Assembly: GCA_009782495.1 (NCBI GenBank)
Contig: WRIX01000002.1
Span: 27,365-69,196, forward strand
DNA from: Treponema sp.
GTDB taxonomy: Bacteria > Spirochaetota > Spirochaetia > Treponematales > Breznakiellaceae
Length of the DNA: 41,832 bases
Direction of reading: 5' to 3'
Shown: piece by piece, positions 27,200 to 41,832 of the stretch
Layout: every line of letters begins with the position of its first letter
Position numbering within the stretch: position 1 is the stretch's first letter
Made by a program: the position numbers and the translations under genes
The notes under the pieces: generated by a model
The model's database searches: none
What the model was told of the DNA's origin: nothing
The model's input: only the letters and a program-made list of their open reading frames with translations

Positions 27200-28366
27200 T
27201 CAACCATAATACCCGCATCTTTTTATTTCGGCTGTTTTGACGGCGTTGAAAATAATATCGTTTAATTCCAGTGTGTCGTACAGCTCTTTTGCTTCACTCA
27301 CTTTACCGCGCAGTACCGGATGGACAGGGCTGAACAGTACGCAGCAATCCGCATGGGGAAGTATTGATGTTTCATAGCTGCCGAAGTTTTTTGCAAGGGT
27401 TATAATTGCTTCCTTATCCATTCCGATGAGCGGCCTTAGTACCGGTAACGCGGTGCGGCTTTCCGCACAGCTTATGTTTTCTATGGTCTGGCTTGCAACC
27501 TGGGAAAGGCTTTCTCCGGTTACAAGGCATTTTGCTTTTATTTTACGGGCAATAAGAGAAGCCGCTTCCATCATTGCCATACGCAGAAGGATCGTATTCC
27601 ATTCGGCAGGTTTTTTTTCGGCGATGGCTTTTTGTACGGCAGTAAAATTTACGATATACAGATGCGTACCCATACAATACGAGCCGGTAATTTCAGCCAG
27701 ACGGATCGTTTTATCCAGCGCTTCCTGTGATGTATAGGGCGGGGTGTGAAAGTACACGGCATCCAGTCCCATGCCCCTGCCTGCCATAAGGCAGCCTGCA
27801 ACAGGCGAATCGATTCCCCCGGATAAAAGCAAAAGTCCCCGGCCTGCGCTTCCCGCAGGCAGTCCCCGGAGGCCTTTTTTTCCCGTTCCGTAAATGTATG
27901 CTTTTTCCCGTATTTCCACAGAGATAATACTTTGCGGATTTTTTACATCAACCTGTAATTCTGGAATTGCTGTTTTTATTGCATCCCCGGCAGCAGAGCA
28001 TATTTCATAGGAATTTAACGGAAAACTCTTGTCCGTTCTGCGAGCTTCTACCTTAAATGTTTTTGTTCCGCTTTCTGTGATTTTTTGTGCTTCACTAACA
28101 CAGGCAGCCAAAACTTCATCAACAGTCTTTGCGGTTATTTGTGTTTTTGCCCAGCCGGCAATTCCGGTCAGATGAGAAAGAACTTCTTCCACAGTATCCG
28201 CCGCTTCTTCGCTGATGTTGTGAATGTAAATTCGTCCTGCGCGGCTTTCCAGCGTGGAATGGGGGGCGCAACTACGAAGCATTGCTTTTAAGTTACGGCG
28301 GAGAATTAATTCAAAACTCTCTCGGTTTCCGCCTTTAAGGGTGAGTTCTCCAAGTTTTACCAGAAT
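27200..28366 (-). CDS. thiI: tRNA 4-thiouridine synthetase ThiI with non-standard start
   Basis: The conserved N terminus reads ILVKLGELTLKGGNRESFE, then a THUMP domain and a PP-loop domain with LLLSGGIDSPVAG. No rhodanese domain is present, as in short ThiI forms. It adds sulfur to U8 of tRNA and may serve thiamine synthesis. The first in-frame ATG is at 28282, which would delete the N-terminal 28 residues. Upstream in this frame there is no ATG, GTG or TTG; ATT at 28366 is the most plausible start, with ATA at 28372 or CTG at 28363 as alternatives. The stop of the aspartic protease gene lies just upstream, so reinitiation or a -1 frameshift from that gene is possible. Confidence 0.85.
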   Translation of the reverse strand: MLVKLGELTLKGGNRESFELILRRNLKAMLRSCAPHSTLESRAGRIYIHNISEEAADTVEEVLSHLTGIAGWAKTQITAKTVDEVLAACVSEAQKITESGTKTFKVEARRTDKSFPLNSYEICSAAGDAIKTAIPELQVDVKNPQSIISVEIREKAYIYGTGKKGLRGLPAGSAGRGLLLLSGGIDSPVAGCLMAGRGMGLDAVYFHTPPYTSQEALDKTIRLAEITGSYCMGTHLYIVNFTAVQKAIAEKKPAEWNTILLRMAMMEAASLIARKIKAKCLVTGESLSQVASQTIENISCAESRTALPVLRPLIGMDKEAIITLAKNFGSYETSILPHADCCVLFSPVHPVLRGKVSEAKELYDTLELNDIIFNAVKTAEIKRCGYYG

Positions 28367-28377
28367 TGTTATTGTAG

Positions 28378-28791
28378 CTATAGTATATAACTCTCTATTT
28401 TGTCGCCGTGAACGCCGACGAGTTTTTGGTTTACCGGATCGACCATCAAATCCATGTCTTCAAGCGGTAAAGCGCCCAGGAGTATTTTGCTCCAGCCCGA
28501 TGAAACAATGGCCGGCAGTGTGGTGTCACGGTTTTTCCAGTGAATCTCCACCGGTTCGGTTACCGTGCAAACCTCTCTTTTGTCGTTAGCAAGTGTTACT
28601 CTTTTAGTTCCCCGTATCCGTAAGCCAAGTATTTCCCGGACTTCTTCAGAAATAACCAAAGTAAAAGCACCGGTGTCAACTAAGGCATTAACGGTAGTTT
28701 TCCGGACTTCTTGCTCAGAAATATAGCCCCGTTCAGTATTTGCCACATCGCCGGCATTTTTTAATGTAATAGTTTCGAATACCATTCCCAT
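28378..28791 (-). CDS. Retropepsin-like clan AA aspartic protease (copy 1)
   Basis: A 137-residue protein with one active-site motif, ALVDTGAFTLVI near residue 36, and the flap/second-strand pattern ending KILLGALPLEDMDLMVD. One DTG per chain means it must act as a dimer, like retroviral proteases. It has no signal peptide or membrane segment. It is clearly related to the protein at 41449, about half identical by eye. ACGGAGG lies upstream of the ATG, and a weak TTGCTT-17-TATCTT promoter may be its own. It sits between the cysteine desulfurase gene and thiI and appears to have displaced the thiI start. Its substrate is unknown. Confidence 0.85.
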   Translation of the reverse strand: MGMVFETITLKNAGDVANTERGYISEQEVRKTTVNALVDTGAFTLVISEEVREILGLRIRGTKRVTLANDKREVCTVTEPVEIHWKNRDTTLPAIVSSGWSKILLGALPLEDMDLMVDPVNQKLVGVHGDKIESYIL

Positions 28792-28818
28792 GATAAACCT
28801 CCGTATTAAGATACTATA

Positions 28819-30036
28819 CTACAGGGTAATAAGCAATGCAGTGATTGTATCGGCAAGTAAGTTTATTTCTTCCATTGTAGTGCTGTAACCCTGGGAAATT
28901 CGTATGCCGCCCAAACTCAGTTCTTTATCCAGGCCCATTGCTTCCAGAATGGGACGCTTTTTGTCCGCCGAAGAACAGGCGGAGCCGGTGGAAACGGCAA
29001 AGCCTTTTTCGTCCAGAGCGCGTACCATCACTTCTCCGGGTATGATCGTTCCATTATTGTTTTTGAATGCGCATTGAAGAATCCACGGAGAAAAGCGGCC
29101 GTCTTCAGCTTCCCTGTCAGCAGGTATGGAAGTAAACAGACCTGTTTTTTGCAGTGATTCGATAAGCGTCTTCATTCTTTTTGCAGCCTGAAAAGCTGGC
29201 TCTGTTTCTTTATATCCGGATGTTTCCGTCTGTATGTGGTTTTCCAGCGATTCCGCCAGGTTTATTGCACCTTGAGTATTTTCTGTTCCGGGACGGATTT
29301 TCTTTTCCTGATCTCCTCCGCGGAAGAGGGGGGTTATAGGAGATTTTAACCAGAGTAAACCGGTGCCGCGGCAGCCTCCGATTTTATGGGCGCTGAACGA
29401 AGCCGAATCAATTCCCCAATCATAAAGATCCAGTTTGATTTTTCCCAAAGCCTGAACCGCATCGCAGTGAATGTGTATGGCGCTGTTCTGCTTTTTACGG
29501 ATTGCAGCCGACAATGCCTTTATGTCGTTAATCGCCCCTGTTTCATTATTTACCGCCATTATACCTGCCATACGGGTATTGGGATTTTTTTCCAGCGCCT
29601 TTTCCATCTTCGCTTCGCTTACCCTTCCGTCTTTCTCTACACCTATCGAAGCGCAGGGAATGCCAAGGTGTTCCAGTGATGTAACATTTTCCCGGATTGA
29701 AGGATGTTCCGCTGCAGAATACAAAAAGACGGCAGATTTATTTGTCTTTTGCTGCGGATCGCTGTCAGCAAAACGGCGAGGTTTAGTAAGCAGCGAAAAA
29801 AGTACGATGATGTTCGATTCGGTTCCGCCCGAAGTAAAATAAATCTCTTGCGGCTGTACTCCCAGCACCTGCGCACAACGGTGCCGTGCATCTTTCAAAG
29901 CTTGCCGGGCGGCTTTTCCTTCCGTGTGAATCGAAGAAGGGTTGCCAAAAGGAACAAATGCCGTATTGTTTACGCAGTTTGCAATATTTTCTGCGGGAAT
30001 AGCTGTAGCTGCCCAATCAAAATAATAACGCTCCAC
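28819..30036 (-). CDS. Cysteine desulfurase (NifS/IscS type)
   Basis: 405 residues. PLP Lys is in SFSAHKIGGCRGTG, the catalytic Cys in STGSACSS, and FGNPSSIHTEGKAAR and FTSGGTESN are family motifs. It takes sulfur from cysteine for tRNA thiolation or FeS clusters; thiI downstream and mnmA nearby are likely clients. The GTG at 30036 was chosen because the protein then starts ERYYFDWAAT, as in family members, and a promoter (TTGTCC-17-TATTAT) ends seven bases before it. A longer frame reaching 30309 runs through thrA on the other strand and is rejected. Confidence 0.92.
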   Translation of the reverse strand: MERYYFDWAATAIPAENIANCVNNTAFVPFGNPSSIHTEGKAARQALKDARHRCAQVLGVQPQEIYFTSGGTESNIIVLFSLLTKPRRFADSDPQQKTNKSAVFLYSAAEHPSIRENVTSLEHLGIPCASIGVEKDGRVSEAKMEKALEKNPNTRMAGIMAVNNETGAINDIKALSAAIRKKQNSAIHIHCDAVQALGKIKLDLYDWGIDSASFSAHKIGGCRGTGLLWLKSPITPLFRGGDQEKKIRPGTENTQGAINLAESLENHIQTETSGYKETEPAFQAAKRMKTLIESLQKTGLFTSIPADREAEDGRFSPWILQCAFKNNNGTIIPGEVMVRALDEKGFAVSTGSACSSADKKRPILEAMGLDKELSLGGIRISQGYSTTMEEINLLADTITALLITL

Positions 30037-41448: not shown

Positions 41449-41832
41449 ATGGGAATTGTACAAGCCGAAATTACTCTAAAAAACGTATTTGATCTGGCAA
41501 GAGCAGAAGATGGGTCTATCCCGGAACAGGACATCAGAACCACGACGATTACAGCAGTGGTGGATACCGGGGCATCAACGCTGGTTATTAACGAAGAACT
41601 GTGCCGGAAACTGGGGCTTGCCGTAAAGGAAACAAGGGAAGTTTCTCTTGCGGATAGCAAAAAAACAACTGTAAAAGTAGTCGATCCTGTTGAAGTCCAT
41701 TGGAAAAACCGGCACATGATGTGCCAGCCCCTGGTTGCTTCGGATTCCGGAAAAATACTCCTGGGCGCCATCCCTTTAGAGGCAATGGATTTAATTGTTG
41801 ATCCGTTGCATCAGGAATTAATTGGCGCTCAT
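41449..41832 (+). CDS. Retropepsin-like clan AA aspartic protease (copy 2, partial)
   Basis: The first 128 residues are present; the window ends before the stop. The active site is VVDTGASTLVI near residue 38, and KILLGAIPLEAMDLIVDP matches copy 1 at 28378-28791 almost motif for motif (DPVEVHWKNR against EPVEIHWKNR). About half the residues are identical by eye. AAGGAG precedes the ATG, and it has its own promoter with a palindrome. With one DTG per chain it should dimerise. The substrate is unknown. Confidence 0.88.
   Translation, partial: MGIVQAEITLKNVFDLARAEDGSIPEQDIRTTTITAVVDTGASTLVINEELCRKLGLAVKETREVSLADSKKTTVKVVDPVEVHWKNRHMMCQPLVASDSGKILLGAIPLEAMDLIVDPLHQELIGAH

Follow-up and report, generated by a model that had tools for sequence, protein, structure and literature searches.

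The thiI gene carried on the minus strand of the 41,832-nucleotide stretch of Treponema sp. DNA analyzed here (the window) has no ATG, GTG or TTG at its conserved N terminus. Our preferred reading, to which we give a probability of about 0.5, is that the gene is alive, that its ATG has changed to ATA, and that initiation at a non-AUG codon would supply full-length ThiI at a reduced rate. The likeliest codon is the ATA at 28381, which overlaps the stop codon of the preceding protease gene as AUAG. The whole case is built on comparing sequences, most of them from draft genomes.

Compared with ThiI proteins as defined by TIGR00342 and the structures 2c5s and 4kr6, the window protein is unusual only in its translation start. 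It matches the family model over its full length and above the curated cut-off (323.2 bits versus 264.5; profile positions 1-368 of 373 matched), its ferredoxin-like, THUMP and ThiI/PP-loop domains (PF22025, PF02926 and PF02568) all exceed their cut-offs, and its translation contains the motif SGGIDSP. A translation beginning at ATA 28372 matches the ThiI model from its first position, and the protein aligns to the two solved structures from residue 3 or 4. No second ThiI was found in the assembly. The gene order on the minus strand is an iscS/nifS-like cysteine desulfurase, a clan AA protease (28791-28378), thiI and further genes (Table 1). In many relatives iscS lies directly upstream of thiI, and the family commonly has iscS-thiI with no protease between them. 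The protease falls just short of the TIGR03698 cut-off (56.0 bits versus 57.35), and its gene is preceded by a GGAGG Shine-Dalgarno (SD) sequence with a predicted pairing of -10.7 kcal/mol.

Table 1. Features of the thiI region, in window coordinates
Feature	Position	Strand	Remarks
thiI, tRNA uracil 4-sulfurtransferase	27200..28381	-	TIGR00342 (E 2e-96), PF22025, PF02926, PF02568
First in-frame ATG, giving truncated ThiI if used	28280..28282	-	no SD-like pairing
ATT, alternative non-AUG start candidate (choice of the first-pass annotation)	28364..28366	-	no SD-like pairing; conserved K 3 codons on
ATA, alternative non-AUG start candidate	28370..28372	-	lacks SD-like pairing; in one reading, counterpart of the G023 ATG
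TAG, stop codon of the clan AA protease	28378..28380	-	protease ORF 28378-28791
ATA in the ThiI frame, proposed thiI start	28379..28381	-	overlaps the protease stop (AUAG); followed by GCT; identical in G004
AGAGAG, weak SD-like sequence	28391..28396	-	9 nt before ATA 28381; predicted duplex -5.1 kcal/mol
Clan AA (retropepsin-like) aspartic protease, between iscS and thiI	28378..28791	-	PF13650 and PF13975 exceed cut-off
iscS/nifS-like cysteine desulfurase, conserved part	28819..30036	-	PF00266; NCBIfam matches below equivalog cut-offs
Tract of near-identity with G004 (90-100% in most 50-base steps), flanks more diverged	28340..28870	-	window compared with L083

The ThiI frame opens after the TGA at 28462-28460, and a scan of the sequence from there found no ATG, GTG or TTG until ATG 28282, so that the lack of a usual start reported by the first-pass annotation is borne out. 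The protease ends in TAT ATA CTA TAG. Shifted by -1 from that of the protease, the ThiI frame runs across this end as TAT ACT, ATA (28381), GCT ACA, ATA (28372), ACA, ATT (28366) and CTG (28363), followed by GTA AAA, CTT GGA and GAA. The complete list of start-like codons in 28459-28282 is ATA 28381, ATA 28372, ATT 28366, CTG 28363, ATT 28306 and ATG 28282. Three of these (ATA 28372, ATT 28366 and CTG 28363) had been named in the first-pass annotation and are indeed there, but the ATA that overlaps the stop codon had been missed.

ATA 28381 is the likeliest start, and three features favor it over ATT 28366: the GCN second codon is kept, the codon forms AUAG with the protease stop, and it is the only candidate with predicted SD pairing. 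In the congeneric genomes G001, G002 and G003 the codon after ATG is GCA, GCG or GCC, and ATA 28381 lies 8 codons before the conserved lysine, a distance that is 7 or 8 codons for the start in congeners. Duplex calculations, made with an assumed usual 16S tail that was seen in a complete genome of the same order and not in this draft assembly, gave -5.1 kcal/mol for ATA 28381 and +0.8 kcal/mol or more for the other upstream candidates. A strong, well-placed SD sequence is common among known AUA and AUU starts, although perhaps not required, and the pairing at ATA 28381 is weak; it is nevertheless stronger than that at the ATG starts of congeners and of G023, a genome from a neighboring genus (-3.5 to +0.8 kcal/mol). 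As in natural genes with AUA or AUU starts, no usual start codon is present at or before the conserved N terminus, and AUAG (28381-28378) has the 4-nt stop/start overlap of a termination-reinitiation pair, provided that AUA is the start. No promoter-like site was found on the minus strand that would point to an internal promoter and a leaderless thiI transcript.

The choice of start codon is uncertain because ATA 28372 can also be aligned with the ATG of G023, where the start reads ATG AGC, iscS ends shortly before the ThiI match and no protease lies between the two. Use of a later codon instead, ATA 28372 or ATT 28366, again coupled to the protease, is in our estimate rather unlikely, although it has several points in its favor: ATA 28372 in CTACAATAACA resembles CTACCATGAGC of G023 and lies 5 codons before the conserved lysine, a distance known from some ATG starts in our survey, and AUU is a documented start codon (PMC13398362, PMC13009471). 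However, SD-like pairing is lacking at both (+0.8 kcal/mol for ATA 28372 and +1.3 for ATT 28366), they lie 5 and 11 nt past the stop whereas reinitiation drops steeply with distance (PMC10666635), and ATT 28366 is nearer to the conserved lysine than every ATG start counted in the survey. A rare start codon reached by termination-reinitiation, which the first-pass annotation had put forward, is thus the best supported of its explanations, but its choice of ATT 28366 gives way to ATA 28381. It is highly improbable that the product is a truncated ThiI from ATG 28282. This is the first usual start in the frame and the one that automatic annotation would likely choose, but its predicted duplex (+0.5 kcal/mol) offers no SD-like pairing and the residues ahead of it are conserved. 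Its use would remove 28 residues counted from ATT 28366, in agreement with the figure given earlier, or 30 from ATA 28372; the part lost includes the beginning of the ferredoxin-like domain (PF22025 match, residues 2-72), which aligns with B. anthracis ThiI 2c5s from residue 16 onward.

The nearest relative, G004, belongs to another species of the same genus, and its ThiI is 85% identical to that of the window. Its protease gene likewise lies between iscS and thiI, and more than 100 bases are identical across the junction. A sequencing error, which the first-pass annotation had named as the finding that would overturn its claim, or an assembly error can be dismissed because the same start-less junction occurs in this independent genome of a separate species. 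The arrangement is conserved between the two species, with the caveat of a recent exchange. The near-identity extends over a tract of about 530 bases (28340-28870) that spans the end of iscS, the protease and the start of thiI, while the flanking genes differ by about 12-18%; dS between the window's genome and G004 is 0.087 for the protease, 0.44 for iscS and 0.74 for thiI. The tract is probably the result of a recent homologous exchange between the two species, well after their split.

Whether thiI is still functional has to be judged with this exchange in mind. Between the window's genome and G004, thiI has a dN/dS of 0.12, with 10 synonymous and 2 nonsynonymous changes in the first 30 codons, and neither species has a stop or a frameshift in the gene. 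Since the junction probably moved between the species fairly recently, the low dN/dS would mostly reflect the time before the start was lost. The time since the presumed exchange corresponds to roughly 0.04 substitutions per neutral site per lineage. In a neutral simulation using half of the dS of 0.087 for each lineage, about 5% of runs ended with no stop in either copy, against about 24% when that rate was halved; these figures count stops, and indels at an assumed rate would lower them further. Three of the 45 family genomes that are at least 90% complete lack a ThiI match, so loss of thiI is possible and the gene may be dispensable. It could therefore be that thiI was recently silenced and is on its way to being lost, its start having been destroyed and the resulting allele exchanged between the two species; the absent start codon, the weak ribosome-binding signals, the recently shared segment and the high-quality genomes without ThiI would all fit. 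We nevertheless consider this doubtful, because both copies have remained open to an extent reached in few of the neutral runs, and the domains are intact. A damaged or dead gene, as had been suggested at first, is on these comparisons unlikely, with the frame intact in two species and the dN/dS as given above.

Programmed -1 frameshifting late in the protease gene, giving a protease-ThiI fusion whose junction peptide would span KTRRRSRRQNRELYTIAT, had also been considered in the first-pass annotation and is highly improbable. The ThiI frame is indeed -1 relative to that of the protease, it has no stop in the 29 codons leading up to 28372, and there is one A_AAA site, at 28425. This tetramer is the only one and lies far upstream, however, and the overlap contains no X_XXY_YYZ slippery heptamer; no stimulatory RNA structure was predicted (z -0.70, 140 nt), the protease ends near the ends of its paralogs, and congeners make ThiI from an ATG of its own. 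We see no reason for such a fusion.

In the preferred reading, initiation at ATA 28381, the ATG start of thiI would have mutated to ATA. Ribosomes would translate the protease from its strong SD sequence, terminate at TAG and presumably reinitiate without delay on the AUA that overlaps it, with the weak AGAGAG assisting, and the yield of ThiI would be reduced. Among gene pairs, overlaps of 4 nt or 1 nt are the most frequent layouts, the former leading where reinitiation is coupled, and coupling falls steeply with distance, being almost abolished at about 20 nt (PMC10666635). Removal of the SD sequence often, but not always, weakens coupling (PMC6728339). In S. aureus, AUA and AUU starts give about 10%, or a little more, of the AUG level (PMC13009471). 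One may conjecture that little ThiI is needed, which would be a possible reason for weak starts.

Our survey of thiI starts drew on family genomes and on named contigs and gave 137 distinct loci. The nearest start is ATG at 95 of them, GTG at 18 and TTG at 4, one is truncated at a contig boundary, and the remaining 19 lack a usual start within 30 codons; these last are the window, G004, L007 and 16 others (L042, L043, L045, L049, L061, L074, L075, L145, L152, L155, L160, L167, L170, L177, L182 and L197). All of these 16 share one layout, with thiI in the -1 frame relative to iscS and overlapping its end, and with an ATT preceded at about 7 nt by a G-rich SD sequence. The latter is GGAGG, located 7 nt before the in-frame ATT, at 14 loci and GGGGGG at a similar place in L177 and L182. 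At those iscS-overlap loci for which it was computed, the predicted SD pairing is strong (-10.6 to -13.2 kcal/mol). GGAGG with ATT is found at 14 of the 19 start-less loci and at 8 of the 117 others (Fisher p 6e-10), and within one genus at 13 of 13 versus 7 of 22 (p 6e-5); these p-values overstate independence, since the loci are related and the region also encodes the IscS tail EVLKFL. A pattern search of 200 genomes for the motif together with the iscS end retrieved ten genomes, all of this genus, and a reversed control retrieved none. In iscS, taken as a control gene, a usual start near the conserved N terminus is absent at only one of 54 loci (L011). The absence of a start codon at thiI is more than chance: the same codons recur in a second species, and such absence is rare in iscS and recurrent in thiI.

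The ATT loci are best read as AUU-initiated thiI genes. The window is a separate case from them, with no iscS overlap, no strong SD sequence and a putative AUA start that overlaps a different gene. At the remaining start-less locus, L007 (G006), which is near a contig start, in-frame ATGs lie 45-58 codons upstream. An in-frame IscS-ThiI fusion was considered for G042, which has an open frame of 835 aa, and was rejected, the two genes being in different frames there; long open frames are also present in G051 and G068. Autoregulation by IF3 was likewise set aside as a local precedent: infC of the window's genome and of G004 starts with TTG after GGAGG, not with ATT.

The closest known parallel is pncA (BBE22) of Borrelia burgdorferi, also a spirochete metabolic gene without a usual start at its conserved N terminus, where initiation at the first usual codon would yield a shortened enzyme. 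It starts at AUU, and databases carry the truncated protein (PMC13398362), the same annotation error that is to be expected for thiI. It differs in using AUU instead of AUA and in being plasmid-borne, and its start was established by genetics, biochemistry and a crystal structure (PMC13398362), whereas that of thiI is deduced from comparison. The S. aureus genes infC, ccpN and citZ (AUA) and cvfC1 (AUU) resemble thiI in that several are conserved between relatives and in their reduced yield, which is presumed for thiI, but their AUA and AUU sites carry strong extended SD motifs, whereas the ATA in the window has only a weak one, within a gene overlap (PMC13009471). The ATT loci of the other termite Treponema, with a strong SD sequence at about 7 nt, are in this respect like the S. 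aureus genes. Coupled pairs with the -4 nt AUGA overlap share the register of the protease-thiI pair, as well as an upstream gene with a good SD sequence (PMC6728339, PMC10666635), but have AUG where the window has AUA. A limited search of the literature on coupled pairs found no description of a pair with an AUAG overlap, and a limited search of openly licensed papers found no report of a thiI with an AUA or AUU start.

If these readings are taken together, it is quite possible, though we propose it only tentatively, that thiI of termite-gut Treponema has repeatedly been set to a low yield, either by AUU with a strong SD sequence inside the end of iscS or, separately, by AUA in AUAG via reinitiation. 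ThiI synthesis would then be tied both to IF3 and to translation of the gene upstream. An ordinary enzyme gene appears to use non-AUG starts many times in one family (about 1/8 of the loci surveyed) and in two arrangements, and this suggests that ThiI can be made from weak start signals. The loci offer a comparative set for asking why genes drift to weak starts and how IF3, SD strength and gene overlap compensate. They also carry a warning, as automatic annotation would probably shorten such ThiI proteins at the cost of part of their N-terminal domain.

The clan AA protease belongs to a dispersed multicopy family in these Treponema, with 8 matches in the window's genome, 17 in G029 and 12 in G046; the copies are mostly 45-65% identical and have varied neighbors. 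A mobile protease cassette with fixed ends was considered and rejected, as the flanks of the paralogs, compared by eye, have no common ends. A second member of the family, 53% identical, lies on the plus strand at the end of the window (41449-41832), and a similar copy is located at a contig end in G004.
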